From the IMG/VR virus record IMGVR_UViG_3300006793_000005, positions 1 to 38,151 of that record: DNA of 38,151 nucleotides. The stretch is one strand, 5' to 3'. The notes below the pieces were generated by a model. It ran no database searches. It worked only from the letters and a program-made list of their open reading frames with translations, and was not told where the DNA came from. Positions 86 to 27,152 of the stretch are shown piece after piece. Source of the DNA: a virus. Position numbers and translations under genes: made by a program. The stretch's first letter is position 1. Every line of letters begins with the position of its first letter.

Positions 86-1145
86 CCACGTCGTGCGTGA
101 CGATAGTGCTCTGGAGGATGGACGCTGCACCACCAGTCGCCGTCGTCCGGTCGTTACCGAAGTGCGTCTGACTGGCGAGGTTCTCGAAGAGGCCACGTGG
201 CTGGTTAGCGATGATGTTCTGACCACCAATGTTCGTCAGACCATTCCAAACACGAGAGTCCTGACCAAACTGAGCGCCCGCGCTGTCCGTCGGGAAGTTG
301 CCGCCGACAGCGGCGCTCTCCGCGATGACCAACGCGATGGCGCACTGGCCGCCCACGCCAGAAAGATCCAGCGTGGCGGTCCCGCCGAGGTCGTCCTTAC
401 CGAACGAGAGGCCGATGGTGGGGTTGGTGCGGTCAGCGCTGAAGCTCGTAACGAAGATGTTGGGGTTCGTTGTCGCAGCGCCACCGAGCGTCATGGTCGG
501 CAAGATCTCCGCATAGGTGTCCATGCGGTAGAGCCGAACCTTGACCCAGGTGGCGGAGTTAGCCAGGTCGACCGTAACGCCGGTGCGGTCGTCGGTGAAG
601 TAGCTAAAGTCGCCCTGGTACTGCCACGTCGTCTCGACCGAGATGTTTCCGGTCGCGGCGGTCTGCGCACCAGCGCCCGTGACGTTGGGGTCGGTAATCC
701 GCTGGTTGAGGAACCCCTTGGTCGGACCACCGAAGATGTTGATGGCGTTCTCGTTGTTGGAGACGTCGCGCACGAGGCGGTCCATCTCCTCGCTCATCAC
801 ACCAGCGAAGGCACCCACGCCCGCAGTCGTAGCAGTGTCCATCGCGAGACCACTGACCTGAAAGCGACCATACGAACTATGGCTGTTGATGCGGAGGTCC
901 GCATACTGCTGCTGACCGGCGGTCGGAAGCGCACCAGGTGCCTCGCCCTGGAAGCCAACGCCGCTGTTGCGTCCGATGTGGACAGGGATGACCATCTGCT
1001 TGCCGGACCAACCCTTCGACTTCTTCTGGAAGTACTCGCGCATCCAGACGCGGTTGTTGATCTGCTCGGCCACAGGGCCCTGATAGAACTCTTTGAGCAT
1101 CGGCCCAAATGTGCCGACCCCGTTAATACCTACTGTTGCTGGCAT
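1..1145 (-). CDS. Major capsid protein, N-terminal part (continues at the window end)
   Basis: Major head subunit. The ATG at 1145-1143 follows a strong AAGGAGAGG ribosome site. The frame is open to base 1 and continues without a break at 38066-37667, giving about 514 residues. The protein begins MPATVGINGVGTFGP and has charged and aromatic runs such as MREYFQKKSKGWSGKQMV, followed by beta-rich sequence, in the style of HK97-fold capsid proteins of podoviruses. Its place just downstream of an acidic scaffold gene and the terminase genes supports the call. The fold is inferred from context and composition, not from a motif. The 599-residue plus-strand frame opposite it (93-1892) is taken as a shadow. 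Confidence 0.85.
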   Translation of the reverse strand, partial: MPATVGINGVGTFGPMLKEFYQGPVAEQINNRVWMREYFQKKSKGWSGKQMVIPVHIGRNSGVGFQGEAPGALPTAGQQQYADLRINSHSSYGRFQVSGLAMDTATTAGVGAFAGVMSEEMDRLVRDVSNNENAINIFGGPTKGFLNQRITDPNVTGAGAQTAATGNISVETTWQYQGDFSYFTDDRTGVTVDLANSATWVKVRLYRMDTYAEILPTMTLGGAATTNPNIFVTSFSADRTNPTIGLSFGKDDLGGTATLDLSGVGGQCAIALVIAESAAVGGNFPTDSAGAQFGQDSRVWNGLTNIGGQNIIANQPRGLFENLASQTHFGNDRTTATGGAASILQSTIVTHDVGNGDRTNAGADLSLERLQYMMDIMMQDA

Positions 1146-1172
1146 GACGCCTCTCCTTCACGAAAAGAATGG

Positions 1173-2045
1173 TTAGAACGAAGCTCGCTCCTTGAGGGCT
1201 TCGGCAAACGCTGCAGTGGCGTCGGCAATATTGCGAGACTTGCCTTGGACCGGAGGGGGCGCAGAGGCCGTAGCGCTGGGCCGACGGAACGCAGGCTGCT
1301 CTTGAGCAGTCTTCTCCGCCTGGGCCAGCTTGGCCTTGAGCTCTTCGATCTCTTTGCTTGCCTCGCCTCGGTACTGATCGCGCATCTCTTTGCGATGGGT
1401 CTGGATGTACTCAGCTGCCTGAGCCACATCCACCGAGCCGTCCGCTGCAACAGCCTGCCAAAGCTCCGCTGCCTTGACGTCAGGGTTCTTCTCCACAGCC
1501 GTGTTAATCTCAGCCGTAAGCTGACTGGTGACGAGTTGTTCCGTTCGCTCTTGCTGCCATTGCTTCACAGCCTGCATTTCTTCATGCATTTGCTTGATTG
1601 CAGAAGACGACGGGTCTGTCTGCTCACCGAATATCTCGGCGAGCCACTCGTCGTCAGTCTTCTCAACCTTCGCGGGCTGTGGCTGCTGCGGCTGCTTCGC
1701 CTGCGCCAGCGTCAACTGCTCGAGCTCTCTGATGCGGCTCATCGCCTGCTCGAGATCGTTGTCGCGCGCACGGAACTTGTCGTTTACCTCTTTAAAGCGG
1801 CTGTAGGGAATATGCTCAGGGGTCTTTGGAGCTTCGACCTCTTCGCTTTCCGCCTGCGTCTCCACCTCTTCTTTAACGTCCTCGGTGTCTGAAGACGAAT
1901 CGCTCTCCACCTCTTTAACGTCCTCGGAGGGCTCGGACGAATCTGCGGATACCTCTGGAGCTTCGACAGCCTCATCTTCCGAGGGCTCATTACCCTCAAG
2001 TCGACTCACCATCTCATTGTAGCGTTCTTCGCTCAGGATACCCAC
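1173..2045 (-). CDS. Capsid scaffolding protein
   Basis: A 290-residue protein placed directly upstream of the capsid gene in the direction of transcription, where scaffolds usually lie. Residues 15-75 are extremely acidic and Ser/Glu rich, with repeated EDVKE units. A long charged coiled coil (about residues 80-240, containing DNDLEQAMSRIRELEQL and EELKAKLAQAEK) follows, then a Pro/Ala-rich linker and a short helical C-terminus rich in Ala, Lys and Arg. In P22- and phi29-type phages the basic C-terminal helix of the scaffold binds the coat protein. The start is a GTG at 2045, preceded by GAGG. The function is inferred from position and composition; no enzyme motif is present. Confidence 0.75.
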   Translation of the reverse strand: MGILSEERYNEMVSRLEGNEPSEDEAVEAPEVSADSSEPSEDVKEVESDSSSDTEDVKEEVETQAESEEVEAPKTPEHIPYSRFKEVNDKFRARDNDLEQAMSRIRELEQLTLAQAKQPQQPQPAKVEKTDDEWLAEIFGEQTDPSSSAIKQMHEEMQAVKQWQQERTEQLVTSQLTAEINTAVEKNPDVKAAELWQAVAADGSVDVAQAAEYIQTHRKEMRDQYRGEASKEIEELKAKLAQAEKTAQEQPAFRRPSATASAPPPVQGKSRNIADATAAFAEALKERASF

Positions 2046-6840: not shown

Positions 6841-7138
6841 GGCGAACCCCCGTGGAGGACGTGAGAAGTTGCTCGATCTTGCCAGACAGCGCCTTCTCAG
6901 CGACGAAGAGGCCGTCGAGATCGTCCGTCAGGCTCTGGAGTTCCTCGATCACATCACCAAGGGCTGCGTATGCGTCACCGAGCGCGGACTCGAAGTCGAC
7001 CTGCTTACCGTTCTTTGCGTCGGTAATAAGGTCGCCCGCGTCCACCCAAGCGCACACAGCAGCGCCCATAGCAGGCATCGCCATCTGCTGCCCAGGTGAC
7101 CACTTCGTAACACTCTTCGCCGTTTTTACATCACTCAT
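6827..7138 (-). CDS. Hypothetical helical protein
   Basis: A 103-residue protein of unknown function. ATG at 7138 has a good AAGGAGAG ribosome site; an in-frame GTG at 7144 overlaps that site and is less likely. It has an N-terminal segment with MAMPAMGAAVCAWVD, too short and polar for a clear membrane helix, then an acidic amphipathic coiled-coil-like stretch (YAALGDVIEELQSLTDDLDGL). It overlaps the methyltransferase stop by 8 bases upstream and the AAA+ gene start downstream, so it belongs to the same coupled cluster. Short acidic helical proteins in such clusters are often protein-protein adaptors, but this is a guess. Confidence 0.6.
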   Translation of the reverse strand: MSDVKTAKSVTKWSPGQQMAMPAMGAAVCAWVDAGDLITDAKNGKQVDFESALGDAYAALGDVIEELQSLTDDLDGLFVAEKALSGKIEQLLTSSTGVRREDA

Positions 7139-7778
7139 CTGCACTCTCCTTGAATAGCTCTAGCTGGTTATCGGGAAGACCGAGCATCCTGCGATGCTCC
7201 TTTTGCTGCTCAACTGTTGGCTTACCTTTGGGCACCCACTCTATCTGCGTGCTATCACTAGGCTGAGGAAGCCATATGGCCCAGCAGTGACTGGAGGTGT
7301 CCGAGTGACCATCCGCCGTAAACGAAAGCCGACCCTCGATCCAGAGCAGGACGTCTGGGCTGTAGACGATCCCACGGTCTCCTTCTCCCCACCAGGTGAC
7401 CCGCGTGAGCACTGCTCCCAGGGTGTGCCAGTACCGACAGTGTTCCTCGATGCGGTGGACGAACCGGATGAGCTCTCGCCCGTAGGGTGGGTTTGCAACG
7501 ACGTGACTATGTGGTGGCCAGAGCCTCGAGAGACTGTCCTGGACGCTCACAGACTTTACGCCAGGCACCCCGCCGAGCGCGTCACGGAACCTTGGGTCGA
7601 TATCGTAGGCGTGCCAGTGTGCGCCGAGGGGAGCGAGCCACAATGGCAAAGCACCCATACCGGCAGCTGGGTCTACGACATCGCCGAGGGCCGACACGCC
7701 TCGCCGGAGGAACCAGGCCAACAAGGGCAAGACAGCCTCCGGGGGTGTCGGGTAGTATTGATTAACGCCGCCGATCAC
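7131..7778 (-). CDS. DNA N6-adenine methyltransferase-like protein
   Basis: About 215 residues with the two signatures of amino-methyltransferases: an AdoMet-binding loop DPAAGMGALPLWLA (residues 36-49) with an acidic DIDP strand after it (59-62), and a catalytic NPPY (96-99). The product is expected to be N6-methyladenine (or possibly N4-methylcytosine) in phage or host DNA. The start is taken as GTG at 7778 because CAGGAG lies eight bases before it. A longer reading to 7826 would run into the divergent gene. It heads the minus-strand block. Solitary, with no restriction partner, it probably protects the phage from restriction or marks DNA. Confidence 0.8.
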   Translation of the reverse strand: MIGGVNQYYPTPPEAVLPLLAWFLRRGVSALGDVVDPAAGMGALPLWLAPLGAHWHAYDIDPRFRDALGGVPGVKSVSVQDSLSRLWPPHSHVVANPPYGRELIRFVHRIEEHCRYWHTLGAVLTRVTWWGEGDRGIVYSPDVLLWIEGRLSFTADGHSDTSSHCWAIWLPQPSDSTQIEWVPKGKPTVEQQKEHRRMLGLPDNQLELFKESADE

Positions 7779-7792
7779 GAGGAGGACTCCTG
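7779..7792. promoter_or_regulatory. Shared divergent ribosome-binding-site palindrome
   Basis: The 14 bases between the GTG start of the minus-strand methyltransferase (7778) and the ATG start of the plus-strand gene (7793) read CGAGGAGGACTCCT followed by G. The plus strand offers GAGGAGG to the gene at 7793, and the complement offers CAGGAG to the gene at 7778. One near-palindrome therefore serves as Shine-Dalgarno for both directions. There is no room for a promoter between the genes, so each transcript must start inside the opposite gene. Confidence 0.6.
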
Positions 7793-7996
7793 ATGGCTTA
7801 CGCAGAACAACGGAAGAAGGCCGCAAAGGGCTGGATTCAGAAAGCCATCAAGAAGCCGGGAGCGCTCCGCGAAGAGCTCGACACACCGGCTGGCAAGAAG
7901 ATCCCAGCCAAGAAGCTCAACGCGGCTGCCAAGAAGCCAGGCAAGCTCGGCCAACGAGCCAGACTCGCCAAGACACTCAAAGGGTTTAACAAGTAG
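7793..7996 (+). CDS. Small Lys-rich conserved phage protein
   Basis: 67 residues, ATG preceded by GAGGAGG. The protein is very basic, with Lys/Ala-rich helical sequence (GWIQKAIKKPGALREEL, KKIPAKKLNAAAKKPGK, QRARLAKTLKGF). I recognise the IKKPGAL...IPAKKL...RARLAKTL pattern as recurring in small proteins of many tailed phages; no function is established to my knowledge. The charge suggests binding to DNA or to an acidic partner. The next gene starts one base after its stop, so the two are co-translated. Confidence 0.75.
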   Translation: MAYAEQRKKAAKGWIQKAIKKPGALREELDTPAGKKIPAKKLNAAAKKPGKLGQRARLAKTLKGFNK

Positions 7997-11119: not shown

Positions 11120-12028
11120 ATGCAGACCGTTATCACTGACGAGCTAATCACACTTCTCGCCTCGCTCAAGACCAAGAAAACAGCAGTGGAAATGAAGGCC
11201 ATTTGGGCCGTCAATCCTGCGATGGCCGTAGCTTGGCAGGCTGCCATGCTTGCCAACGGGAAGCGCAAGCTTCTGAGCGTCAATCAAGCCAAACTGGACA
11301 AGTCTGGGAAGACAATAGGTGTGCTCACAGTAGGCCTGACCATGTCGCCAGCTGATGAGTCTGCGCCTTTTATCAAGGGGCATAACGCTTGTGCAGGTAG
11401 CACCACAGCATGCCGAGCGGTCTGTGTTGGCAATGCCACTGGTCAGGCCGCTATCTCCGCTCTGTTAGAATTCGATGGGCACCTTCTCGCGCGTCTGGGG
11501 CGCACGATTCTGCGGCATTACTGCAGAGACCTATTCGACGCGCGAGAAGCTCACGAACTCGCAGCCGCACGACGTAAGGCAGACCGACTAGGCTACGGTC
11601 TCGCATACCGTCCAGACGTGGCCACCGACTATCAGGACGGCCGCCAAGGGTCAGACGTGGACATGGTGTACGGGTACACGGCCGTATCGGCCGCAATGCG
11701 TCGTGACGATGGCACCTTGCGCGCATTCTCTCGGAAGGACACCAAGCGCTCAGACGGTCTCGCGCGTGCATGGGTGGCCAAGGGTTATCCGGTGGCAGTG
11801 GTCTTCACAGTGGCCAAGGGAGAGCCGTTGCCCAAGACGTGGCACGGCGCGCCGGTCATCGATGGGGACCTCCACGATGTCTGGCCCATGCAGGATAACC
11901 CGACCACTGGCGCGCCCATCAGCGACAGCTATGGTCAACACGGTGTCGTGATCGGTCTTCGCATGAAGTACGCGAACAATGGCCAACGTGATGCAATCAT
12001 CGCGACCGGCTTCGCGGTAGCTGCGTAG
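11120..12028 (+). CDS. Phage Cys-motif protein (Gp88/DUF7227-like)
   Basis: 302 residues. The motif HNACAGSTTACRAVCVGNATG near residues 88-108 (Cys 91, 98, 102) resembles the CPGAT..C...C....G core of a phage family often annotated as gene product 88-like, in which Cys residues probably bind metal. The upstream IGVLTVGLTMSPADES and downstream LEFDGHLLARLGRTILRHY segments, and a C-terminal region with GYPVAVVFTVAKG and DLHDVWPMQD, fit that layout. The biochemical function of the family is not known to me. AGGAGG precedes the ATG. The family name is a pattern-based memory and should be treated as provisional. Confidence 0.65.
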   Translation: MQTVITDELITLLASLKTKKTAVEMKAIWAVNPAMAVAWQAAMLANGKRKLLSVNQAKLDKSGKTIGVLTVGLTMSPADESAPFIKGHNACAGSTTACRAVCVGNATGQAAISALLEFDGHLLARLGRTILRHYCRDLFDAREAHELAAARRKADRLGYGLAYRPDVATDYQDGRQGSDVDMVYGYTAVSAAMRRDDGTLRAFSRKDTKRSDGLARAWVAKGYPVAVVFTVAKGEPLPKTWHGAPVIDGDLHDVWPMQDNPTTGAPISDSYGQHGVVIGLRMKYANNGQRDAIIATGFAVAA

Positions 12029-12109
12029 GCTCTCACGCGGATGGGATCCGATCGCCTAGATCGGGTCTCATGGCGTGCGATTCTGCGCGGCTTTCAAGAG
12101 GGTAGAAAC
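12027..12109 (+). ncRNA. Repeated structured leader element, copy A
   Basis: First of three related intergenic elements. It starts inside the stop codon of the preceding gene with AGGCTCTCACGCG and ends at the ATG at 12110. A central stem pairs GGGATCCGATC (12043-12053) with GATCGGGTCTC (12059-12069), 11 pairs including two G-U, over loop GCCTA. Outer CACGC (12034-12038) can pair with GCGTG (12073-12077). The shared 3' flank GGCGTGCGATTCTGC follows. The last 25 bases diverge from copies B and C. Confidence 0.7.
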
Positions 12110-12249: not shown

Positions 12250-12330
12250 AGGCTCTCACGCGCGGGTGCCCTCTCCGTTGGATGGGGCGCCAGGCGTGCG
12301 ATTCTGCACGATTCAACAGAGGTACTATCA
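12250..12330 (+). ncRNA. Repeated structured leader element, copy B
   Basis: It starts AGGCTCTCACGCG like copy A, but the central stem has a different sequence: GGTGCCCTCTCC (12265-12276) pairs with GGATGGGGCGCC (12280-12291) over a GTT loop, with one mismatch and two G-U pairs. The 42 bases 12293-12334, including the ATGA start, are identical to 12850-12891 in copy C. Conserved flanks around a stem of changing sequence but kept pairing indicate selection on RNA structure. Confidence 0.75.
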
Positions 12331-12804
12331 ATGAGTACAGACATCCAGATCCACGACCATATCAACGGCGACGACGACTTCCCTTTCGCCGCCCGCATAG
12401 GCCACGGTGGGATCGTGACGGTCGGCGGAGACCCGACCAGCTGCGACCCCTTCGTTGTGGTGACGTCAGAGGGCTACCCGAACTACCCACAGATCACCCT
12501 ATCGCTGCACGGCGGGAATTACACCTACCAGCAAGGGACGCCTGCGCTGACCTACACATACGCGCATGACCGGTCACGCCCGGTCCAATTCTGGGCTGAT
12601 AAGATCGCGACCATCATGGGGTGTGTGTGTCCCCTGTGCGATGCGCCCATCGTGCGATCCGAGTGCGGTGGCAGTGGTGAAGGCATATGTGGGGACAGTG
12701 AAGATGCAGCGCCGGACGTGAGGTCACGCATATTTGGGTACGCGCAGGCATGCCACGCTAGCCTCGTGACATGTGAAGACCTTACCGCGTTTGAAAGCCG
12801 ATAG
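12331..12804 (+). CDS. Hypothetical early protein with Cys motif
   Basis: 157 residues, ATG at 12331 after CAGAGGTACTATCA. Residues 5-90 are beta-rich (HGGIVTVGGDP, DPFVVVTSEGYP, QITLSLHGGNYTYQQG). A Cys cluster follows (CVCPLCDAPIVRSECG), which looks like a small zinc-binding site, then an acidic helical end. I do not recognise the family. The gene is flanked by leader copies B and C, giving it the same expression signals as its neighbours. Confidence 0.6.
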   Translation: MSTDIQIHDHINGDDDFPFAARIGHGGIVTVGGDPTSCDPFVVVTSEGYPNYPQITLSLHGGNYTYQQGTPALTYTYAHDRSRPVQFWADKIATIMGCVCPLCDAPIVRSECGGSGEGICGDSEDAAPDVRSRIFGYAQACHASLVTCEDLTAFESR

Positions 12805-12807
12805 CAC

Positions 12808-12887
12808 AGGCTCTCACGCGTACGGGATCTGAGGATGCTCGGGTCTCGTGGCGTGCGATTCTGCACGATTCAACAGAGGTACTATCA
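12808..12887 (+). ncRNA. Repeated structured leader element, copy C
   Basis: Third copy. It has the same AGGCTCTCACGCG start and a stem GGGATCTGAG (12824-12833) with CTCGGGTCTC (12838-12847), ten pairs including three G-U, over loop GATG. GGCGTGCGATTCTGC and the same 3' flank and ribosome site as copy B (identical over 42 bases) follow. The stem differs in sequence and length from copies A and B but keeps pairing. Confidence 0.75.
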
Positions 12888-13193
12888 ATGAAACGCTTGA
12901 CCATAGCCGTCCTACTGCTCGCACAGGGATGTGCGACCGTCCCACCCGCTCGCCAGATGCCGCGCATCACACACAAGTGCTCGATCGTCGATCGAATCGA
13001 AGGCGGATGGGCCATCATCGAAGCGCCTGACGGTGTGTTGTATGAAATCCCGGCGGAGACCATGCCGGGCATCACTGAAGGGGCGCCCCTGTGTGCCCTA
13101 GAACGCATCGCAGACCTCTGGGAGCCCCACCAGCTGTTTGACTGCCTGGAGCGTGGGGAAGACGTTAATACCTGCATGACTGAGGAGGGCTAG
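12888..13193 (+). CDS. Secreted lipoprotein with DUF3006-like domain
   Basis: 101 residues. The N-terminus MKRLTIAVLLLAQGCATVPP is a short signal peptide with a lipobox-like LAQGC, so the mature protein (from about Cys 15) should be a membrane-anchored lipoprotein. The segment IVDRIEGGWAIIEAPDGVLY followed by EIPAETMPGITEGAPL matches the VDRIEG...AVLE...G...IP...LP.GAKEG pattern of DUF3006 proteins. The C-terminal half has three Cys. Early-expressed phage lipoproteins often block re-infection or receptor use; that role is inference. Its last codons carry the ribosome site of the next gene. Confidence 0.7.
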   Translation: MKRLTIAVLLLAQGCATVPPARQMPRITHKCSIVDRIEGGWAIIEAPDGVLYEIPAETMPGITEGAPLCALERIADLWEPHQLFDCLERGEDVNTCMTEEG

Positions 13194-13199: not shown

Positions 13200-13826
13200 G
13201 AAACCATCACCACAGACGTCATCATCCAAGGACCAGCAACCTGCGGCAGGACAGGAGCGACATACTATGAGGCATGGCTGCCCCTTCGCAGCCCGGCCCA
13301 GGAGTACATCAAGGGCACCCCGTGCGCCTCTGGGCCGACCCCTTACGCGGCCATGAAGAGCCTCGCCAGCAAATACCCGTGGTCAAAGGAGGGCGGCCCC
13401 TTGGTCAGCCTTGAGTTTGCCGGGCCGGTGGCCGACAAAATCATCCTCGACTATCACACCTGTGAGGACTGCGGGAAAGACGAGCGCGAAGACCAGCGCC
13501 ACGGCGGCCACTACTTCATGTGTGAGGCAACCGAGGCGGGGCGCGCGGGGCGTGCGATGTGGGCGGAAGAGGCTGCTAAGGAGCGCCTCGCCGACGCTGC
13601 CCCTGACCTACTCGCAGCCTTAAAGCACATGGTGATGGTTTACACCCTCACCAGCGACCATATAGACGGCCATGCGCCTGATGCTGAGTGCTGTCTTTGT
13701 GAGGCACACAGGGCCATCGCCAAGGCCACTGCCGAGACCGAGAGCTGCCCGGATTGTGGCGGGGGGGCTCTCCGTCTCGACACGACGACCGGCGCGGTCG
13801 ACTGCGTCGATTGCGGGGGGGAGTAA
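13197..13826 (+). CDS. Zinc-ribbon protein of unknown function
   Basis: 209 residues. An N-terminal beta-rich part is followed by a first Cys/His cluster (HTCEDCGKDEREDQRHGGH), a helical section with AAPDLLAALKHMVMV and AHRAIAKATA (a pattern common at the ends of small phage early proteins), and a C-terminal zinc ribbon, CPDCGG ... CVDCGG, at about residues 184-208. It is coupled to the upstream lipoprotein gene by the GAGGAGGGCTAGACC junction. Its TAA overlaps an ATG (13826) that opens the second frame of the methyltransferase locus. It may bind DNA or RNA; no catalytic motif is seen. Confidence 0.65.
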   Translation: METITTDVIIQGPATCGRTGATYYEAWLPLRSPAQEYIKGTPCASGPTPYAAMKSLASKYPWSKEGGPLVSLEFAGPVADKIILDYHTCEDCGKDEREDQRHGGHYFMCEATEAGRAGRAMWAEEAAKERLADAAPDLLAALKHMVMVYTLTSDHIDGHAPDAECCLCEAHRAIAKATAETESCPDCGGGALRLDTTTGAVDCVDCGGE

Positions 13827-14821
13827 TGTCATGGGCACACGTACCACCACAATTCTCAGCCTCTTCACCGGCTACGGAGGGCTCGAGCACGGCATTTCTC
13901 GAGCTCTCGGAGGCGCTCGCGCGGTCTGTATGGTCGAAAGGGAAGCCTTCGCCATCGCAAACCTGGTTGCGCAGATGCAAGCGGGCGCCGTGGCTCAGGC
14001 TCCTATCTGGACTGACGTGTCCACCTTTGACGGCAAGCCGTGGCGTGACCGCGTGGATATCCTCTGCGGTGGCCCTCCGTGTCAGCCCTTCAGCACCGCC
14101 GGAAAGCGCAAGCACACCGACGACGAGCGGTGGATATGGGCAGATGTCGCTCGCATTATCGGGGAAGTCCGGCCCGGCGTCGTCTTCCTCGAAAACGTGC
14201 CCGGACTCCGCAAGCGAGGGCTCGGTGTCATGCTTCGAGACCTTGCCGCTATGGGGTACGATGCGGAGTGGGGTTGTTTCAAAGCGTCCGACGCTGGAGC
14301 ACCGCACCGACGCACACGGCTCTTCCTCCTGGCCTACTCCAACCGCGAGCAGCTACGGCACCACCAACAACGGGCGCAGGGGGGACGGGTCGACCTATGC
14401 CACAGCGGGCAAGCCCAGCCTCAACACGATGGCACGGAGGTGGCCGACTCCAGCAGTGTCGGACTGCCGAAGCTCCGGGCGACACACGACGACGACGGGG
14501 GTGATGCACCCAGGGACGAGCCTAACGGACGCGATGAGGCAATGGCCGACGCCATGTGCGCGGGACCACAAGGGGGGCAACCTCAAGCCCTACAGCGAGA
14601 GGGGAGGGGGCACCAAGGGGGAGCAGTTGCCCAACTTTGTGCGGCATCATTTCCACCAGGTCCCGACGACGCCGAAGGCTGGCGACGGTGGACCCGTGCC
14701 GGTGGTCCTCAACCCGGAGTTCCTGGAGGCCCTTATGGGGCTCCCGATCGGGTGGACCGGGTTCGCCTCCTTGGCAACGGGGTGTGCCCAGCGCAAGCCG
14801 CCCTCGCCTTCCAGGAGTTGA
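13826..14821 (+). CDS. Overlapping +1-frame protein with WPTP repeats, nested in the methyltransferase gene
   Basis: An open frame of 331 codons starting at an ATG that overlaps the stop of the zinc-ribbon gene (TAATG), five bases before the methyltransferase ATG. Residues 138-175 contain ETLPLWGTMRSG and PTLEHRT...SSSWPTPTAS. WPTP recurs at residues 169, 206 and 240 with a similar following sequence each time, and the end reads LNPEFLEALMGLPIGWTG. I remember this set of signatures (WGTMRNG, WPTPTA, LNP.F.EWLMGFPIGWT) from phage proteins found beside cytosine methylases. The function is unknown. It could be a dual-coding product or a relic of a family that arose by overprinting. Confidence 0.5.
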   Translation: MSWAHVPPQFSASSPATEGSSTAFLELSEALARSVWSKGKPSPSQTWLRRCKRAPWLRLLSGLTCPPLTASRGVTAWISSAVALRVSPSAPPESASTPTTSGGYGQMSLALSGKSGPASSSSKTCPDSASEGSVSCFETLPLWGTMRSGVVSKRPTLEHRTDAHGSSSWPTPTASSYGTTNNGRRGDGSTYATAGKPSLNTMARRWPTPAVSDCRSSGRHTTTTGVMHPGTSLTDAMRQWPTPCARDHKGGNLKPYSERGGGTKGEQLPNFVRHHFHQVPTTPKAGDGGPVPVVLNPEFLEALMGLPIGWTGFASLATGCAQRKPPSPSRS

Positions 14822-14841
14822 GCAGCCGTGCGATCGGCTGA
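13831..14841 (+). CDS. DNA cytosine-5 methyltransferase
   Basis: 336 residues from the ATG at 13831. Motif I LSLFTGYGGLEHGI (residues 9-22), the catalytic GPPCQPFS (81-88, Cys 84), FLENV (119-123), and GAPHRRTRLFLLA (motif VIII, 156-168) are intact. Motif X RVRLLGNGVCPAQAALAF lies near the end. The target-recognition region between them (about 170-300) is low-complexity, Gln/Gly/Asp-rich and unlike a typical folded domain. In that same stretch the +1 frame carries strong protein-like repeats. It should methylate cytosine C5 in DNA, probably against host restriction. Whether the atypical recognition region leaves it active is uncertain. Confidence 0.85.
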   Translation: MGTRTTTILSLFTGYGGLEHGISRALGGARAVCMVEREAFAIANLVAQMQAGAVAQAPIWTDVSTFDGKPWRDRVDILCGGPPCQPFSTAGKRKHTDDERWIWADVARIIGEVRPGVVFLENVPGLRKRGLGVMLRDLAAMGYDAEWGCFKASDAGAPHRRTRLFLLAYSNREQLRHHQQRAQGGRVDLCHSGQAQPQHDGTEVADSSSVGLPKLRATHDDDGGDAPRDEPNGRDEAMADAMCAGPQGGQPQALQREGRGHQGGAVAQLCAASFPPGPDDAEGWRRWTRAGGPQPGVPGGPYGAPDRVDRVRLLGNGVCPAQAALAFQELSSRAIG

Positions 14842-18851: not shown

Positions 18852-19411
18852 ACTTCCTCCACGGGTAGGTCGGTCACGGAGATGAATCCTACGATACGCT
18901 CGTAGGCTCTGTCTCCCTTCTTGATTATTTCATGGCAGACGGCACCGCTTCCGGCCGAGTGACCGGCACCGCTCGAGTTGCCAGCCACGCCTGTGATGGT
19001 GTCACCGTCCACAGAAACGATGATGCCCACATGACCTGTGCGGGAGATGCCACGGCGCACCTTGTTCGCGTCGTTGGTTGGCTTCGATGTGCGGGTGCGG
19101 ACATAGATGAGCCCTCGGGGGTGCTCGATGTCCCAGATGTCGTCTCGGGCGATGCGCCTGGACTTGTCTGCTTTGAGCCAGTGGTTCACCGCGCGCCCTG
19201 TTCTGACGGGGTGGAGCTCGAAGCCCATACGACGCAGCGCGTCACAGCAGAAGGTGACGAAGTAGGCACACCACGGTGGCCTGGACGAGGGACGACCGCC
19301 AGCCACGCGAACGAAGAAGTCGACCTCCGGCCCACGGTTGCTGGTCTTCTCTTTGGCGCCCAGCCACGACTCGGCGTAGTTGGCCAGCGCTTCCGGTATG
19401 AGTGATGTCAT
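18848..19411 (-). CDS. CHAP-domain endolysin
   Basis: About 187 residues from the ATG at 19411 (ATGA overlap with the preceding stop, GGAG upstream); an ATG at 19426 is an alternative adding five residues. CHAP/NlpC-type catalytic layout: Cys 48 in RPPWCAYFV, His 127 in TGHVGIIVSV, and Asn 145 in GVAGNSSG. It cleaves peptide bonds in peptidoglycan. There is no signal peptide, so it needs a holin. It follows directly on the 1948-residue virion gene and starts the lysis cassette. Confidence 0.85.
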   Translation of the reverse strand: MTSLIPEALANYAESWLGAKEKTSNRGPEVDFFVRVAGGRPSSRPPWCAYFVTFCCDALRRMGFELHPVRTGRAVNHWLKADKSRRIARDDIWDIEHPRGLIYVRTRTSKPTNDANKVRRGISRTGHVGIIVSVDGDTITGVAGNSSGAGHSAGSGAVCHEIIKKGDRAYERIVGFISVTDLPVEEV

Positions 19412-22400
19412 CTCAGTTGTCTCCATTTATCCGGGCTTCTTATCCGGCCCATCTTTGTTCTCGTTTCCGAGTCCAAGCGTCCTTTTTCCCACCGCTTTTC
19501 GGTGCCCCTGGTGTGCTTCCGTGTGCCCTCATGCAGGATTGCGTCGAGCCTCGACTGGTCTTTCAGGAGGTCCCTGCGCGCATCAAACTCCTGGTCGAGG
19601 TAGAACTCTAGCTTCTCCACTGATTCTTTGAGCCGCTTCTTAGCCGCCTTCAGGTTGTCATATTCTGTGGACAGCGCGCTTCTCTCTGGTCCCGCCGTGA
19701 GTCGGCCGATCTTGCGCTTCTTAGTCCCGATGTCCTCGTCGTACCCCTTGAGGCGCTTGGCCGTTCTATCCATCACGGCTGAGATGGCGCGCTTCTTCAT
19801 CTCTTTGAGCGCCTCGTCCGTCTTAGACTTGTCCCCGATCATGAGCTCATGGCGGGGCATGTTGAACATGTGGTCGAGCATGACGGTGATGAAGCCGGTC
19901 GACGCCCTTTCCAACGCCCCGCCCCCTGGCGTCTCTATTGGAGCGCGGTATTTGTAACCCGCAAGCCACCTGGATATCCCGATCTCACTGTCCAAACGCG
20001 CAACCTCCTCATCTCGCTCGTAGGCGCTGAGGCTGTCATCAGCAAGCACCTTGTCTCGGAGCTTCTTGATGTCTGGTATCCGCCACTCGTAATACGCCGA
20101 GGCCCCCTTGCCTATATATCCGGGGACAAACGTGCGCATCGCTGTCTTTGTTATGAAGGCAATGATGGCGGCGTTGCTCGACCCCGGCATCCCCTTAGCC
20201 TCCGCGAAGTCGACGTATGCGTCAGCAATAGCGGAGCCGCCGACATACGCCATGTCCAAGGCGCGCTTCCAGCCCACGTTTGTGCCCTGCACGGTGCTGT
20301 CAGACAATCCCTTGGCGGCCTTGTACAGAGCGCGGTCGCCAGCGCTCATCTTCGCCAAGTCCTCGCGGGTGGCAGAGCCAAGTTGTTTGACCTGCTCTGG
20401 CCTGAGATATGACAGCTCGGTTGGGTCGATGTACCCAAGCCCGAAGTCGACAGCCGAGCGCCCGAACTCAAGCATCCTGAGCGTGTCCACCATGTCCTCG
20501 TGCGGGTTCGCGTTGCCCATCGGCCATACGTTATACACGCCCTCCTCCCCCGTCGGGTCCATGAGGATGGGCTTTGCCTCTTCCGGGCTCCAGGCTGACG
20601 CTGTTCTGAAGAGTTCGTCCTTCTCATCAAGCTGCGCAGCCTCCGCGCCAATGACGGATGACATCAGTGCGCCGTGAGACGCTGCCTCTGCCGCCCTCTT
20701 TACCATCAGCGGCTTGTAGTTTGTTGAGCCGCGCGACACCGGGCCCGCCAGGATCTCACCCACAATGCCCTGCCTGCCCGGCACGGTCGTCGTCACAGAA
20801 CGCCAGCCGCTAAACGGGGAGCCGAAGAGCGCGTCCCACTCGGGCGTATTCCGCTTTGCGATCTGAATGATTGGCACGTCCTTGAAGTTAACAAAGGTGC
20901 GCGCGGTGATCTCCCCGCCAGAGCGCGCCAATATCCCCAACAGTTGGGGCCGGGTCAGTTGCTTCCCGTTCGAATACGCATTCGACTTGCCGGACTGGGA
21001 TGGCTTCTTCTTGACCAGGGTGATCTCCCGCCCACGCCCCACCGGCACAGACATGCGCTTCCCCTCTGGGAGGGTGTCCCACTCGCGCAGGTACTTCTCC
21101 ATGATGTTGAACGTGTCCCACCCCTTGAACACATTGTCTGGCAGGTCGAACAGGCGACCTACGGTTTTCGTTGGGAGGTCTGCGATCTGCAGTCCTCTTT
21201 TTGTAACCTTCTTGAGCCACGCGTCACCAGTGGCAATGTCAAGGAGACCGGACTTCTTCAGTTCGACCGCCGCAAACGAACTGTCGAGGATATCGCCACG
21301 GCTGATGGCCTCGAAGAACTCTGCCGGGCGCTTTGTTGGAAGCCCTGCCTGCCACCGCTTATAATCGAGCGCCCAGTCCAACGCCTTGACTAACGCCAGC
21401 GGGTCTCTGTTTTTCAGTGCCGCAGCGCCAGCGTTTGATATCCACGCGTTTGCGTGTGAGCTGGGGTTAAGGGCTACGCGGGCTGCTTTTGTGTAGTTCG
21501 CGAGACCTTTGAAGAACGGGACGGTCCGCGTCCAAGACATGGACGGTGAGACGCCGCTCGCCCAGCCCTCGTCTGTGAATATCCAGCGCGCGGAGTTGAG
21601 CAAGTCGTCCTTCAGGTACAACTCTGGCTTCACCCTTCCAATAACAGGGTCCGAGTCCAGCAGCACAGGGTCGGGCGTCCGCACCGCGCGCTCGGGTGAT
21701 AGGTTTGCGGGCTTTTGAAGCCCAAACGCCTCGAGCATTTCCGGGGGCACCAGCTTAAGACGGTTAAGCCTGCGCACAAGGGCAGACGGCACATTGATAT
21801 TGTTATCCTTGGCGTACTTCAGGATGGCGGACGGAGAGTTCCGAGCAAGCGGAGGCAGTTCAGCCGTGTCCACGTACCTGTCTATGAAGTGCTGCAGTTC
21901 AGACGGGATGTCGGGCGCCGACTTGGCCGCGCTCTGCATGTCTATCCTTCCGGCGCGGGGAACCCCTCCCTCGGGAACGAAGGAGGAGCCCTCCGGGTGC
22001 CAGTCGCGAATCGACTTGAGCGCTGTGTTCTGGTGAGACAGCTTGCGAGATGTGATGGCGAGACGCCTCATGTTCGCAATCGCCATGGGCCTGCGCACTA
22101 GCGCGGCCAGTTCAGGGTCTGCGTCCATGTATCTGGCCATCGCGTCGACCACAGAGATCTCGCCAGGCTTTCCGTTCACATCTTGATACCTAAACCTGAC
22201 ATTGTTGACGCCACCTTCCTTTGCCTCGTCGAGGATTGCGCGCATCGAATCCCGGTCCACCGACCGGCGACTGCGGCGTTCGATCTCGTTGGCTATACGG
22301 GTGACTGCGCCCTCGCGATATGACGCGACCTGCATGTTGTTCGCTATCCTGTTCTCAAGGGCCAACTGCGCCTCCTCAAACGCGAGCGCCCTGAAGCCGG

Positions 22401-25254
22401 GGACCTGTGACAGCGGGCTGTCCTCAAAGAACTCGGCGGCGTCCTCAACAAGCCGCACCACCTCCTGGTTGAGGTTGCGAACCCTGGGCTCAACACTGCG
22501 CTTCGCGGCAGGCTCGTCCCTGAGGGCTCCCTCTGGGGTCAGCCTTCTCGAGGGGCTGAACGTACCGTCTGCCTGCAGCGTGTATGGCTTCTCGTCAAAG
22601 CTATAGCCACGCGACTCACGCGGAGCGGTGAGCCCAGGGGAAAGCTTTGGCGACTCGTATGCCGCTCGACCGGGGGGATACCATGGAGCCATCTCGTGAC
22701 CAGGCCGCACCACCGCTGGCTCTGGCGTAACCGGCGGCTCCTCGAACGGAACCATGCCGCGCCCACCGGGAACCCCCTCGCGCATCGCGGCGTCGGCCTC
22801 GTTCAACATCCTCTGCGCCTCGTGCGCCCGCTGCCTAAGCAAGTACGAAGTCTCGTCGGCAAGCGCCTCCTCCATCAGCCTCTCGACGATGTCGCGTGGC
22901 TGACCCTGAGACCGCGCCCTCTCGACCCGGTCGACAAGCGCCCGGTTGTACTCCCTGGACTCCTCGATAGCGGCTCGTGCCCGCTCCCTAAGCGCGCGAA
23001 CATTTATATCTGGTGGCGCCACCGCTCCACGATCAGGGACAGCGCCAGCACGTCGAGCGCCCATCGCCTCCCGTGTCGCTGCCACCTCTGGGAGGTCTGC
23101 CACTGCCCCTGGCGTCACCACGCGCTCGGCCTGGCCGACCATGCGAGCTCCAGCAGGGGTCTCTTGTGCCCGGAAAGCGCGCTCGGCGGCAACGAACGGG
23201 TCTCCGCCAGCCCTCTCCATCATCTGCATGAGAGCCGCTCGGGCGCTCTGCGGGTTTGGGAAGTGGCGCACTGAATCCGTCAAGTAGGCGAGCGCTTCAG
23301 CGAGCGCAGCCCTGTCCAACTGCGTCGGAGCGCGCCCCTTGAACGCATCGGAGGCCAACTGCCGGAGCCACGGCGTGTCCATGTCGAGCAGTTTCAGCCC
23401 AATCGCCTCTGCCTCTGGCGACAACGTGTACTTGCCAACACGAGGAGGCACTTGCCCAGGCGCAGGCAGGCCGAGCGGCTGCGGCTGCGGGGGCAGCGGG
23501 GTGTCGGTCGGGGCCAGCGGGGTGCCGCGCTCGAGAACCTCTGGGATGAGCGCCCCCTCTGGGCCAACTGGGCCAGCACGTCGAGCGCCCATCGCCGCAC
23601 GCGTGGCTGCTACCTCTGGCAACTCCCCGCCCGGAACGTCTTTGAACGAGAACCCTGCGCCAGGTGGCGGCTCTCCCGCAACCACTACATCGGGAGACAA
23701 CTCCTCATACACGGGCCTGCCACGACGCGCCTTGACCGGCTGCTGTATAGCAGCGCCGGGCTTTGGTGGAGGGTCGAGCGCGTTTGCCAGCTGCGGGCCC
23801 AGAGCCTTAACGCCCTGCTCTAACTGCCTCGGGTCCGGCAAGAGCTCATGCGCAAGCGGGCGCATGGCTGGGTCTGCCATGTGGGTGGGGTCGACCTTCC
23901 ATCGCTGAAAGAGGGCCCAGAGTTCGTTCGCTGAGTCCATGACGGCAGCGGCCCCGCGTGTCGCCCCAGCGCCTCTTCGCCCAGAGTCGGCGTATCTGTT
24001 CATGGCGTTGTATGTCTTGCGGCCCCAGTTGGCGGCACCCTTGGACAGCGGGACGCCAAGGCGTCGTGCAATCGGATACACCATCGCGGTAGTGACAATG
24101 GGGTACGCCTTTGCAACATCCCCCGGCTTGTTGAACAGCGCCTGGACGAAGGCCACCATCTCCCTGCTCATCTCAGGCCATCGCTTGGTCGCCTCCTCCT
24201 CAAGGATGTGCTGGCCACGTCCCTGGGATACCTCCATGCCGCCCATATCCAGGAGCACCTTCTTGCGCTCAGATGCGGTGGACTCCTCCCAGAACTCCTT
24301 TGGTATGTTGCCGCCTGACATCCATGAGAGGATCTCGTATGTCGCCTCTGCAAACTCGAGGGCGTTCTCGGCGGCGTTTTCAAGTAGTGTCTTCGAGCCA
24401 GAGCGCACGACAGCGTCCGAGAGGATGCCCTCAAGAAGGTCCGCAGACTCCTTGTTTTCGAGTTCCCACCTCTTGCTCCACCCCCTGCGCTCTGCCGGGT
24501 CCATCGAAACACCAAACACGCTGATGGTCTCGTCGCCGTCCCACTCGTCGGTGTTCATTGCCGCGTAGCCCTCAAGCGCTGCGCTTGTGATGCCACCGGC
24601 CAGCGTCCCCGCAAGAGCGCCAGCGCGCGTGAGCGCAGCCTGCCCTCTCGCCGCAGCGCGCTCGGGGATGCCGCCAACAGCCCCCTTCTGGTATGTGTCC
24701 AGGCCAGACTCGAGTCCACGCGCCTGCTCGAGCGCAAGAGGCTCTCGTGGCGCAGCAGCCCACTCAACGGTCTTGCGCACATCTTGCGCAAACTGGCTTG
24801 GCAGACCCTCGAACCTGCGATGCGCACGCGCCATCTGCTCCACAGGCCTTGAGCGCATGTAGTCTGCAACGCCAGACGGAAGCGGCTCTACGGGCTGGTT
24901 GCGCACAGCCGGGGCGCCTGGCTGCGCCTCGAACGGTCGCCTCACATCTGTCGCATACGGCAACTGCTGCGTCGGCCCAGGGAGCGGTGGGGAGGCTGGC
25001 TGCTCTGGAGCTGGCGGCAGAGTGAACGCCAGCGGCGTATCGAACGAAATGGGTGGCTCAGGAGGCTTGAGCCTAAGTGCCGAGGCGCCCTCGTGCTGCA
25101 TAAGCGGGACGGACGCAACCTGGTCGGTGATAGCCATCCCCTCAACGCCTGGCGCTGTGGGATCGATGCCGAAGCCGCCGAGGATCTCATTGAACCGCTC
25201 TCGCGTGACCCCCTGTGACGCCATCTGCTTGGCAAGCTCAAGGACAGTCGCCAT
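19408..25254 (-). CDS. Giant internal virion / DNA-ejection protein
   Basis: 1948 residues. The start is ATG at 25254 in a TAATG overlap with the upstream gene. The protein is long, mostly helical and Ala/Arg/Glu rich, with a Pro-rich N-terminal 130 residues, a Gly/Ala stretch (about 200-225) that could cross a membrane, and no recognisable enzyme motif. Near residues 553 and 728 it repeats LPEVAATR(A/E)AMGARRAG, and 25 bases of that repeat are identical at the DNA level. The basic coiled-coil C-terminus (ESVEKLEFYLDQEF onward) lacks a hydrolase. Size and place after two other Ala-rich virion genes match ejectosome proteins of T7-like podoviruses (gp16 length class). Homology to T7 gp16 is not shown. 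Confidence 0.75.
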   Translation of the reverse strand: MATVLELAKQMASQGVTRERFNEILGGFGIDPTAPGVEGMAITDQVASVPLMQHEGASALRLKPPEPPISFDTPLAFTLPPAPEQPASPPLPGPTQQLPYATDVRRPFEAQPGAPAVRNQPVEPLPSGVADYMRSRPVEQMARAHRRFEGLPSQFAQDVRKTVEWAAAPREPLALEQARGLESGLDTYQKGAVGGIPERAAARGQAALTRAGALAGTLAGGITSAALEGYAAMNTDEWDGDETISVFGVSMDPAERRGWSKRWELENKESADLLEGILSDAVVRSGSKTLLENAAENALEFAEATYEILSWMSGGNIPKEFWEESTASERKKVLLDMGGMEVSQGRGQHILEEEATKRWPEMSREMVAFVQALFNKPGDVAKAYPIVTTAMVYPIARRLGVPLSKGAANWGRKTYNAMNRYADSGRRGAGATRGAAAVMDSANELWALFQRWKVDPTHMADPAMRPLAHELLPDPRQLEQGVKALGPQLANALDPPPKPGAAIQQPVKARRGRPVYEELSPDVVVAGEPPPGAGFSFKDVPGGELPEVAATRAAMGARRAGPVGPEGALIPEVLERGTPLAPTDTPLPPQPQPLGLPAPGQVPPRVGKYTLSPEAEAIGLKLLDMDTPWLRQLASDAFKGRAPTQLDRAALAEALAYLTDSVRHFPNPQSARAALMQMMERAGGDPFVAAERAFRAQETPAGARMVGQAERVVTPGAVADLPEVAATREAMGARRAGAVPDRGAVAPPDINVRALRERARAAIEESREYNRALVDRVERARSQGQPRDIVERLMEEALADETSYLLRQRAHEAQRMLNEADAAMREGVPGGRGMVPFEEPPVTPEPAVVRPGHEMAPWYPPGRAAYESPKLSPGLTAPRESRGYSFDEKPYTLQADGTFSPSRRLTPEGALRDEPAAKRSVEPRVRNLNQEVVRLVEDAAEFFEDSPLSQVPGFRALAFEEAQLALENRIANNMQVASYREGAVTRIANEIERRSRRSVDRDSMRAILDEAKEGGVNNVRFRYQDVNGKPGEISVVDAMARYMDADPELAALVRRPMAIANMRRLAITSRKLSHQNTALKSIRDWHPEGSSFVPEGGVPRAGRIDMQSAAKSAPDIPSELQHFIDRYVDTAELPPLARNSPSAILKYAKDNNINVPSALVRRLNRLKLVPPEMLEAFGLQKPANLSPERAVRTPDPVLLDSDPVIGRVKPELYLKDDLLNSARWIFTDEGWASGVSPSMSWTRTVPFFKGLANYTKAARVALNPSSHANAWISNAGAAALKNRDPLALVKALDWALDYKRWQAGLPTKRPAEFFEAISRGDILDSSFAAVELKKSGLLDIATGDAWLKKVTKRGLQIADLPTKTVGRLFDLPDNVFKGWDTFNIMEKYLREWDTLPEGKRMSVPVGRGREITLVKKKPSQSGKSNAYSNGKQLTRPQLLGILARSGGEITARTFVNFKDVPIIQIAKRNTPEWDALFGSPFSGWRSVTTTVPGRQGIVGEILAGPVSRGSTNYKPLMVKRAAEAASHGALMSSVIGAEAAQLDEKDELFRTASAWSPEEAKPILMDPTGEEGVYNVWPMGNANPHEDMVDTLRMLEFGRSAVDFGLGYIDPTELSYLRPEQVKQLGSATREDLAKMSAGDRALYKAAKGLSDSTVQGTNVGWKRALDMAYVGGSAIADAYVDFAEAKGMPGSSNAAIIAFITKTAMRTFVPGYIGKGASAYYEWRIPDIKKLRDKVLADDSLSAYERDEEVARLDSEIGISRWLAGYKYRAPIETPGGGALERASTGFITVMLDHMFNMPRHELMIGDKSKTDEALKEMKKRAISAVMDRTAKRLKGYDEDIGTKKRKIGRLTAGPERSALSTEYDNLKAAKKRLKESVEKLEFYLDQEFDARRDLLKDQSRLDAILHEGTRKHTRGTEKRWEKGRLDSETRTKMGRIRSPDKWRQLR
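23044..23068. repeat. 25-bp direct repeat in the giant virion gene, copy 1
   Basis: Identical to 23572-23596, 528 bases apart and in the same reading frame. It encodes part of the repeated MGARRAG peptide. The surrounding sequence is similar but not identical, so a short internal duplication is likely. Confidence 0.8.
23572..23596. repeat. 25-bp direct repeat in the giant virion gene, copy 2
   Basis: Partner of 23044-23068. The spacing is a multiple of three, so recombination between the copies would delete or duplicate 176 codons in frame. Confidence 0.8.
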
Positions 25255-27152
25255 TAGTCCCCAGCCCGCCGCCGGAGTTTGCGCCCCCACTCCCCGCCAC
25301 CCCACGACGTGCTGATATTGGCCTTCCTTATTGCGTTCCGGGCCTTTATGAGCGCGGCCTTGGCCTCTTTCCTCTTCTTGAGGATCTCCTTCTTGTACTT
25401 GGCTGTGACCTCTCTTGCGTCACCATCGGACGTGCCGTAGTCCTTCATCTCCGGGTCAGACGCGAATTCGGCCACGTCCGCCTTGGATATCCCCGTCCTG
25501 TCAGCAATCTTCTTCAGCTTGGCGACCGCCGCCTTTACCATGGCCGGGCTCTCTAGCTGCCGGTGGTCAAGGCCGAGAGCCGCACTGGCATCGTCCATCG
25601 CCTTGCTGACAATGGCCCTGTCTGTAGCATCTGCTGCCGCCGGGCGCGTCCGCGTTTGCCAGTCACGGTTCCATGCGTCCAGTTTGGCTCGGGCGTCGGA
25701 GTCGAGGGAGCCGGGAGTCTCCTGTATCCTCTTGACCTGCAGAGCGCGGTCCTTGACCTTGATCCTGTTGGCCGCATACGTCCCCTTGGCGAGAGCAAGC
25801 AGCACATAATGTGGGTCGGCCGCATTTCTAGCGCTCATCGTGATGCCCTGGATCGTCGTCGTCTCCCTCCCCGGAGGAGTTGGGCCGTCGCCGCCGCCCT
25901 TCTTCTTCTTCTTCGCCTCCTTATCTTTCATTCTGTAGACATCCCGGAGGGTCTGGCTCTCCAGCTTCACCTGTTTGGCCGGAGCCCTTCTGCCCCCAGA
26001 CTTGATCGCGTTCCGAGCTCGAGCCTCCACCAGCGCGGGCACGTCGTGCTCACTTGTGATGAACGAGGCGTAGTCCATGGCACCGCGCGCTATCTGCAGC
26101 AAGTCTCTTGCCTGCGCCTCTTGGCCAGCAGCGATGAGTGCGCCGTATGACTCCGCCAGGTCGGAGATGGTGAAGTCGGACCCACCGCGCGCCCTTTCCA
26201 CAAACTCGCCAGCTGTGACGGGCGTGCCAGTGCGCTGCTCGGGCACATCCATGCGCTGCGCTTGGACGTGGAGCACGCGCTTCTGGTTTTCATTCAGCTC
26301 GTCGTACTGCTGTCGCGACCACCCGTATGCAGTGAGCGTCTGGTCAAGCGCCCTGTCGAGTCCCATCGCCTCTCTAACTTTGGCCACGAGATGGGGACGG
26401 TCTTCAGGCTCAACAGCCGCCATCCACTCTTGGAGCTTATTGCGCCTGGCTGGGGTCAGCTCCTCGAGTGCGGGTTGCGTCTGCTGCAGCGCGTCGCGCT
26501 CGAGGAGCTGACCCTTGACCCTCTCAAGCGCATCCCAGACCAATCGCCGCCGTGGATCGTAGCTGCCATCCGGCAGCTGGGTCCAAGCGATGCCGCCTTT
26601 GCCGTCCCTTGTGACGATTCCGTCCTGGATGGCCTCCTCCAAGACGGATTCCGGTGTAATGTCGGCCGTTGGTGCAGACGGTGGCTCCTCGAGGGGGGCG
26701 AACGCTCGCCTGGGCGACACCCCTTCTACCAGCCGACGAGTCATCTCTTCTCTCGCCACGGGGGCCTGCGCTCTTGCCCTCGCCGCACGCTCGGCCATCT
26801 CGGCCCCGCCCGAAGGATCCCAGTCCTGCGGGTCCTCCGTCATGCGCTGCCTGAGTGCGGTGAGCTCTTGGGGGCCGGTCGGGCCCTTCCAGTGCTCAGC
26901 GCGACTCTTAACCGCCTCCCCCTGCAAGCGAGCTACGGCTTCTTCTGGGGTCTCCTTTGCGGCCTGGTAGATGTGCCGACCAATCCCGTATAGACCAGCT
27001 GCGGCCTTAGTGCCGATCCCGATGGCCTGTATAATGCGCAGCGCCCGCTCTTCGCCCGATGGCTCTTGCGGCTTCTGTTGCCAGAACTTCTGCACCGGGG
27101 GCGTTCTCGGCCCGAAAGCCCGCGATGGGTCTGGAAGGATGATGCGTGCCAT
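25254..27152 (-). CDS. Internal virion protein (ejection-type)
   Basis: 632 residues, ATG at 27152 with a GGGGGG-type ribosome site. Charged helical protein with Pro/Arg-rich start, long Ala/Glu/Arg/Gln helices (PEEAVARLQGEAVKSR, REEMTRRLVEGVSPRRAF), a KKKKKGGGDG linker and a very basic end (KYKKEILKKRKEAKAALIK). There is no catalytic signature and no signal peptide. Placed between two other large virion-type genes and coupled to the 1948-residue gene (TAATG), it is probably one of three ejection proteins that enter the host with the DNA. Assignment is by context and composition. Confidence 0.65.
   Translation of the reverse strand: MARIILPDPSRAFGPRTPPVQKFWQQKPQEPSGEERALRIIQAIGIGTKAAAGLYGIGRHIYQAAKETPEEAVARLQGEAVKSRAEHWKGPTGPQELTALRQRMTEDPQDWDPSGGAEMAERAARARAQAPVAREEMTRRLVEGVSPRRAFAPLEEPPSAPTADITPESVLEEAIQDGIVTRDGKGGIAWTQLPDGSYDPRRRLVWDALERVKGQLLERDALQQTQPALEELTPARRNKLQEWMAAVEPEDRPHLVAKVREAMGLDRALDQTLTAYGWSRQQYDELNENQKRVLHVQAQRMDVPEQRTGTPVTAGEFVERARGGSDFTISDLAESYGALIAAGQEAQARDLLQIARGAMDYASFITSEHDVPALVEARARNAIKSGGRRAPAKQVKLESQTLRDVYRMKDKEAKKKKKGGGDGPTPPGRETTTIQGITMSARNAADPHYVLLALAKGTYAANRIKVKDRALQVKRIQETPGSLDSDARAKLDAWNRDWQTRTRPAAADATDRAIVSKAMDDASAALGLDHRQLESPAMVKAAVAKLKKIADRTGISKADVAEFASDPEMKDYGTSDGDAREVTAKYKKEILKKRKEAKAALIKARNAIRKANISTSWGGGEWGRKLRRRAGD

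Follow-up and report, generated by a model that had tools for sequence, protein, structure and literature searches.

Two overlapping reading frames of a phage cytosine methyltransferase locus probably encode two chains of one enzyme

Same-strand long overlaps with selection in both frames have rarely been established in bacteria or phages, and they are frequently put down to faulty annotation. Such a locus raises the question of whether two full-length proteins are really encoded by the same bases and, if so, what the second protein does beside a methyltransferase. Here, we analyzed a stretch of DNA of 38,151 bases (referred to as the window), an IMG/VR virus record that could be recognized as a tailed phage because it encodes terminase, portal, Erf-like annealing and single-strand binding proteins. 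Two genes on its plus strand overlap almost completely: alpha (13831-14841, 336 aa), which has motifs I-VIII and X of a C5-cytosine methyltransferase and would be its large subunit, and beta (13826-14821, 331 aa), which is read in the +1 frame relative to alpha and whose ATG is separated from the alpha ATG by 5 nt. An earlier note on the window had pointed out these two fully overlapping frames and proposed that both are protein-coding; the two ORFs are indeed present, as are the motifs it named (GPPC, ENV, GAPHRRTRLF and LGNG in alpha; GTMRSG, three WPTP repeats and LNPEFLEALMGLPIGWTG in beta).

Several other features of the window were also recorded. A second protein resembling DNA methyltransferases is encoded at 7134-7826 on the minus strand (phrog_799, E=3.7e-15), and three large ORFs had no PHROGs match at E<=1e-4 (93-1892, plus strand, 599 aa; 19408-25305, minus strand, 1965 aa; 25254-27152, minus strand, 632 aa). 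Upstream of the locus and close to gene boundaries, a perfect 42-base direct repeat (12293-12334 and 12850-12891) and a second repeat of about 63 bases (12027-12089 and 12808-12867, 82.5% identical) were noticed as extra matches when L001 was compared with the window; these repeats are possibly shared regulatory sequence.

Coding capacity of the two frames

Two independent viral-contig searches, one with beta and one with alpha, together with the first hits, yielded 150 distinct viral pairs; without exception, beta was in +1 relative to alpha, and both frames were open and homologous over their full length. When cellular genomes were searched with beta alone, alpha was found in the frame below in 80 of 80 loci; no standalone beta gene occurred among them, and the +1 homologues without an overlapping methylase that the earlier note had named as support were not found. 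All 80 loci from an alpha-only search likewise had a beta match, and a third, AT-rich set, found with a Paenibacillus phage protein, showed beta as the +1 frame in 54 of 55 distinct loci. Homologues keep both frames and the +1 frame is intact in most of them, contrary to the two outcomes that the same note had regarded as fatal to a second protein, namely conservation of one frame only or frequent interruption of the +1 frame.

Stop codons were then counted, with expected numbers obtained by shuffling synonymous codons. For the window by itself, the open +1 frame is unremarkable: about 2.7 stops were expected over the alpha range and one was seen, which is the end of beta (p=0.17, GC 66%). Across 149 alpha genes there were 60 stops in the +1 frame versus 474.6 expected, and 1565 in the +2 frame versus 1723 expected. 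Regional counts were based on fixed codon ranges chosen independently of beta, such as codons 1-170; over this range, the 64 loci from the alpha-only search had 6 stops in +1 (171.4 expected) and 324 in +2 (388.5 expected), and loci with GC below 0.56 had 2 in +1 versus 90. The +2 frame is broken by stops and, therefore, the openness is specific to +1. A strong internal control is provided by 36 nested relatives from the AT-rich set (GC 0.41-0.54), in which codons 1-60, before beta, contained 121 stops in +1 versus 97 expected, whereas codons 60-170, within beta, contained 7 versus 152 (+2 frame, 240 versus 240). Dual coding of the locus is firmly supported.

The frame under constraint changes along the gene. 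Codon-position rates were measured in 81 disjoint pairs of relatives (206 loci), and a smaller earlier set agreed with them. In the first half, the rates at alpha codon positions were r1=0.109, r2=0.063 and r3=0.239. Between 50 and 80% of the gene they were r1=0.242, r2=0.075 and r3=0.081, which is the signature of the +1 frame because the third position of that frame is the first of alpha, and in the last fifth they reverted to an alpha-like pattern. Two dN/dS-type ratios gave a similar picture: at 50-80% of the gene, alpha had 0.70 (0.59-0.86) and 0.89 (0.67-1.28) compared with 0.20 and 0.25 in beta. Over the first half, the alpha values were 0.22 and 0.19 and those of beta were 0.59 and 0.51 (0.45-0.59; SN/SS), versus 0.69 and 0.90 (0.78-1.04) for a mock beta frame in flanking control ORFs, although these controls were picked by length and may include false ORFs, and few sites are synonymous in both frames at once (304 in the smaller set). 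The alpha frame is more constrained in the first half and the last fifth, and constraint passes to beta at 50-80%; the beta frame is strongly constrained in mid-gene and, to a lesser though still measurable extent, where it overlies the catalytic domain. The reading of both frames as coding was thus borne out by substitution rates and stop depletion across relatives, and the rates directly show what had been suspected for about 14340-14680: constraint there is on the +1 frame, as though the second protein had taken over the recognition domain.

The two starts are closely coupled in position. The double start occupies 13824-13833 and consists of the TAA of the upstream gene (13824-13826), the beta ATG (13826-13828), which overlaps this stop as TAATG (13824-13828), and the alpha ATG (13831-13833). 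It is preceded by a purine-rich, Shine-Dalgarno-like stretch, GGGGGGGAG (13815-13823), which ribosomes would use; GGAG is located 7 nt 5' of the alpha ATG and 2 nt 5' of the beta ATG. In 121 of 140 relatives, the alpha start was at +2 (56), -4 (40) or +5 nt (25) relative to the beta start. The +2 class mostly has ATGTG or GTGTG, and initiation in both frames is possible at some AUGUG/GUGUG starts in E. coli (PMC9841429). For the window, coupled reinitiation of beta and Shine-Dalgarno initiation of alpha would be a reasonable guess.

The catalytic chain and the modular chain

Alpha matched PF00145 (E=1.2e-35) and, over residues 3-329, phrog_363 (E=2e-62), and it carries the catalytic motifs expected of a C5-cytosine DNA methyltransferase of the PF00145 type (an FxGxG-type motif I, PCQ, ENV and RxR). 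These comprise the motif I region LFTGYGG (13861-13881), motif IV GGPPCQP with the catalytic Cys (14068-14088; G81, C84 and S88 invariant in 82 relatives), motif VI ENV (14191-14199; E121 invariant, N122 and V123 nearly so) and the motif VIII region GAPHRRTRLF (14296-14325; R161 and R163 invariant), followed near the C-terminus by motif X, RVRLLGNGVCPAQAALAF (14758-14811; G315 and N316 invariant). The AlphaFold model of alpha was confident at residues 1-185 and about 307-336 (pLDDT 96-97 in the C-terminal blocks) and low at 190-256 (mostly 37-50). This model resembled M.HhaI with Z=22.0 over 197 residues, and alpha is accordingly modelled as an HhaI fold without a folded recognition domain. 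The linker of residues 190-256 (14398-14598) spans the recognition-module region; its frame is open, predicted to be disordered and nearly neutral.

In a single-chain C5-methyltransferase the recognition domain and motif IX are found on the catalytic chain, whereas motif IX of this locus is in the +1 frame. That one enzyme might be divided between the two frames was first suggested by a weak match of alpha residues 307-333 (motif X) to the end of phrog_1008 (E=0.0014), the family that beta matches. At the DNA level, beta motif IX, LNPEFLEALMGLPIGWTG (14708-14761), continues straight into alpha motif X, which overlaps its final bases. Thus, the order in the DNA is that of an ordinary C5-methylase, with the segment of modules and motif IX placed in the second frame.

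Beta matched phrog_1008 ('DNA methyltransferase', E=3.4e-31, residues 82-314), as did all 91 beta proteins of set A5. Pfam and NCBIfam searches with the window beta gave no family, and a Pfam search of the 91 beta proteins gave no nuclease family, HNH included. A Ras match in one of the 91 members (E=0.0027) and weak matches to MS2 coat protein, the only ones that a PDB profile search returned for beta (E=0.0047 at best for the whole sequence and about 5.7 for each stretch), were taken as chance.

The window beta contains three consecutive WPTP modules, then motif IX and then a variable tail, with WPTP itself starting at 14330, 14441 and 14543. Module 1 (14330-14440) is present in L089, partly present in L093 and absent from L009; module 2 (WPTPAVSDCRSSGRHTTTTGVMHPGTSLTDAMRQ, 14441-14542) is found in L009 and not in L093, and has a homologous segment in mycobacteriophage BabyBack (41.9% identity by BLAST over beta residues 134-261); module 3 (14543-14660, its end being approximate) is common to L002, replaced in L089 and missing from L009 and L093. 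Close relatives can therefore be seen to gain or lose whole modules, and L009 and L093, which lack whole modules found in the window and L089, keep both frames. The number of WPTP-like matches per beta protein ranged from none to seven. From their position and behaviour, we infer that the WPTP modules are recognition domains, possibly several per enzyme. Multispecific phage C5-methylases carry a series of interchangeable recognition modules between motifs VIII and IX, and the three modules of the window may be a comparable case. It should also be noted that L178 (Salmonella phage S9-5) and L180 (Acinetobacter plasmid pPM193665_2) are compact versions with a methylase of about 240 aa, in which the overlapping beta is full-length and the module region very short.

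Motif IX of beta aligned with the C-terminus of actinophage methylases (hhalign probability 97.9, E=5.6e-13, 25 columns), and the module region gave weaker HMM hits to monomeric enzymes (about 30-64 bits) and one BLAST hit. The motif IX segment was modelled at pLDDT 88-94 over most of its length; the mean for the whole beta model was 58.6, which counts against a two-subunit enzyme in which beta forms a small domain.

The N-terminal half of beta (13826-14329) is overprinted on the catalytic domain of alpha and, besides its reduced SN/SS relative to controls, has near-invariant residues (W3, P7, L60, G62, S80 and G105). It includes GTMRSG (14255-14272), and, as the earlier note had observed, GTMRSG...LEHRT of beta and the methylase motif GYDAEW...GAPHR of alpha are encoded by identical bases. 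That note went on to propose that overprinting of a methylase gave rise to the WPTP family. For the C-terminal half (WPTP and LNPxFxEWLMG) this view was not supported: a better reading is that this half is the recognition domain of the methylase itself, written in a second frame, because monomeric actinophage methylases such as VRedHorse gp68 read the matching part in the catalytic frame. Within beta, the N-terminal half alone is a candidate for true overprinting.

A two-chain enzyme and its alternatives

On the basis of these results, it is likely that the locus encodes one C5-cytosine DNA methyltransferase made as two chains from two overlapping frames, and the best explanation of beta is that it would supply the target-recognition domain and motif IX to this two-subunit enzyme. 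Alpha has motifs I-VIII and X, and beta, in +1, has between one and several WPTP modules ahead of motif IX, with constraint moving from alpha to beta where the recognition region starts and back to alpha after motif IX. Ribosomes would initiate in both frames at the adjacent start codons and the two chains would associate, so that the small domain for reading DNA, which is missing from alpha, is built from the modules and motif IX of beta, while the C-terminal motif X helix of alpha would pack against its own catalytic core. The enzyme may methylate the DNA of the phage as protection from host restriction, and its target sequences would change when WPTP modules are gained, lost or swapped. The earlier suggestion that beta regulates or modifies the methylase is recast here, since beta would complete it. 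A point against the two-subunit reading is that in L131 and L134 (contigs 3300028925_008942 and 3300029631_000007) the alpha frame is broken between the catalytic part and motif X, with beta intact; motif X may be lost or separate in these two.

It might be argued that only alpha is functional and that the open +1 frame is a by-product of high GC content and the amino-acid sequence of the methylase. The window is GC-rich and the openness of its own +1 frame is not significant, as given above, but the depletion of +1 stops persists in loci with GC below 0.56 and, in the nested relatives, starts only inside beta. Mid-gene substitutions follow the +1 frame, and this frame-specific pattern already refutes the explanation, which we regard as highly improbable. 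Programmed frameshifting into one chain, starting in alpha, shifting to +1 before the modules and returning before motif X, would rebuild the order of a monomeric methylase, and at the corresponding place actinophage relatives are either split or read in a single frame. However, two shifts would be required, no shift site was seen on inspection by eye, and beta has its own conserved start adjoining that of alpha. Moreover, under such a mechanism the +1 frame would not have to stay open ahead of the modules, but that region has 6 stops where 171 were expected; we consider this mechanism very unlikely.

Constraint on the N-terminal half and the lack of a known Pfam family would also suit an independent beta protein located on the methylase gene and serving, for instance, as a regulator, an inhibitor or an anti-restriction factor. 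On the other hand, the strongest constraint falls on the modules and motif IX, the very parts that are missing from alpha and in-frame in monomeric relatives, and beta without alpha was found in none of the 80 cellular loci; the probability of this reading appears to be small. Finally, out-of-frame insertions of HNH endonucleases in phage methylases have been published (PMC11855218), which raises the idea of a homing endonuclease hidden in the methylase, similar to the ShiLan domain. None of the 91 beta proteins has HNH or another nuclease family, and beta is no insertion but spans the catalytic motifs and carries motif IX, which makes a hidden endonuclease scarcely credible.

For the N-terminal half of beta within the proposed two-chain enzyme, we tentatively suggest, at a little under even confidence, that these approximately 165 residues form a functional domain that arose de novo when the methylase core was overprinted, the recognition domain having first been read in the second frame and then extended back to the shared start. 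If so, this dual-frame enzyme would have both subunits produced together from start codons lying almost side by side, and its recognition modules could be swapped with the catalytic domain untouched.

The arrangement is kept in hundreds of phages and prophages, and the family is large, with GC contents from about 0.4 to 0.7. It represents a rare and testable case of two full-length proteins from the same bases, in which a division of labour is legible from substitutions alone, one frame carrying the catalytic core and the other most likely the recognition domain. It also offers a natural system for dual-start translation, the origin of split enzymes and phage retargeting of DNA modification. 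Annotation of such loci has been inconsistent: the annotated CDS is the +1 frame in Acidovorax phage Alfacinha1 (as 'cytosine-specific methyltransferase') and Synechococcus phage Ssp-JY39 (as 'hypothetical protein'), and the catalytic frame in Acinetobacter phage ABMM1. As annotators chose either frame, many recognition subunits may be mislabelled or missing.

Comparison with known systems

In M.EcoHK31I, a two-polypeptide C5-methylase that needs both polypeptides for activity, the smaller chain is encoded in another frame within the larger gene. According to a published account, its larger chain has motifs I-VIII and X, motif IX is on the smaller chain, the predicted TRD is assigned to the larger subunit and the recognition sequence is YGGCCR (PMC3404938, which cites Lee, Kam and Shaw 1995). 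The present locus shares the distribution of motifs, with motifs I-VIII and X in alpha and motif IX on a second chain, here beta. However, beta is only slightly shorter than alpha (331 versus 336 aa), the two have a near-common start and nearly complete overlap, the constrained modules are in the beta frame rather than in the large chain where that source places the TRD, and no restriction enzyme was noticed beside the locus. EcoHK31I sequences were not found in plasmid searches with several beta queries. Because selection in the recognition region, the near-common start and the complete overlap differ, we did not file the locus as an M.EcoHK31I member.

The nested pairs Diva gp49/gp50 and Tadhana 54/55 are similar in having beta-like modules and motif IX in +1 inside alpha, which keeps motif X, but their beta begins about 100-190 nt within alpha. 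M.AquI and the split actinophage methylases (BabyBack 83/82) also consist of two chains, the second with the recognition region and motif IX, and BabyBack gp82 has LPTP modules in common with beta; in them, however, the first chain stops after motif VIII and motif X is on the second chain, whereas motif X is in alpha here. Actinophage methylases have the order LLPTP modules, (L)xxxFxEWMMGxPxGWVT motif and GNGVxPQQ, and in the monomeric VRedHorse gp68 these modules and motifs IX and X follow a similar catalytic domain, differing in that everything is in one frame. The ShiLan domain (PMC11855218) is likewise a second out-of-frame ORF within a phage methylase gene, but it is an insertion encoding an HNH endonuclease, while beta spans the methylase motifs and an HNH domain in the alternative frame was absent from all 91 beta proteins.

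In a tree of the catalytic domain (92 rows, unrooted, built by a quick method), full-overlap and nested forms were mostly on opposite sides of a branch with SH-aLRT 99. Scattered among the nested ones were single-frame forms, some of which (such as L052) may be due to a frameshift introduced in sequencing, and split forms whose second chain carries motif X; one split form, L164, was among the full overlaps. In L052 (about 1596-2789), the alpha and beta segments exchange ORFs midway, as with a single-base indel.

The earlier note knew of no published description. Motif IX on a second polypeptide has been published for M.EcoHK31I (PMC3404938), and gp50 of Paenibacillus phage Diva is annotated as 'g49 internal gene'. 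The family itself was undescribed in our literature search for overlapping methylase pairs in phages, which recovered the ShiLan work and had most subscription journals outside its range. Compared with these systems, the features that look new are the near-common start, the complete overlap, the second-frame position of the recognition modules and how widespread the family is.
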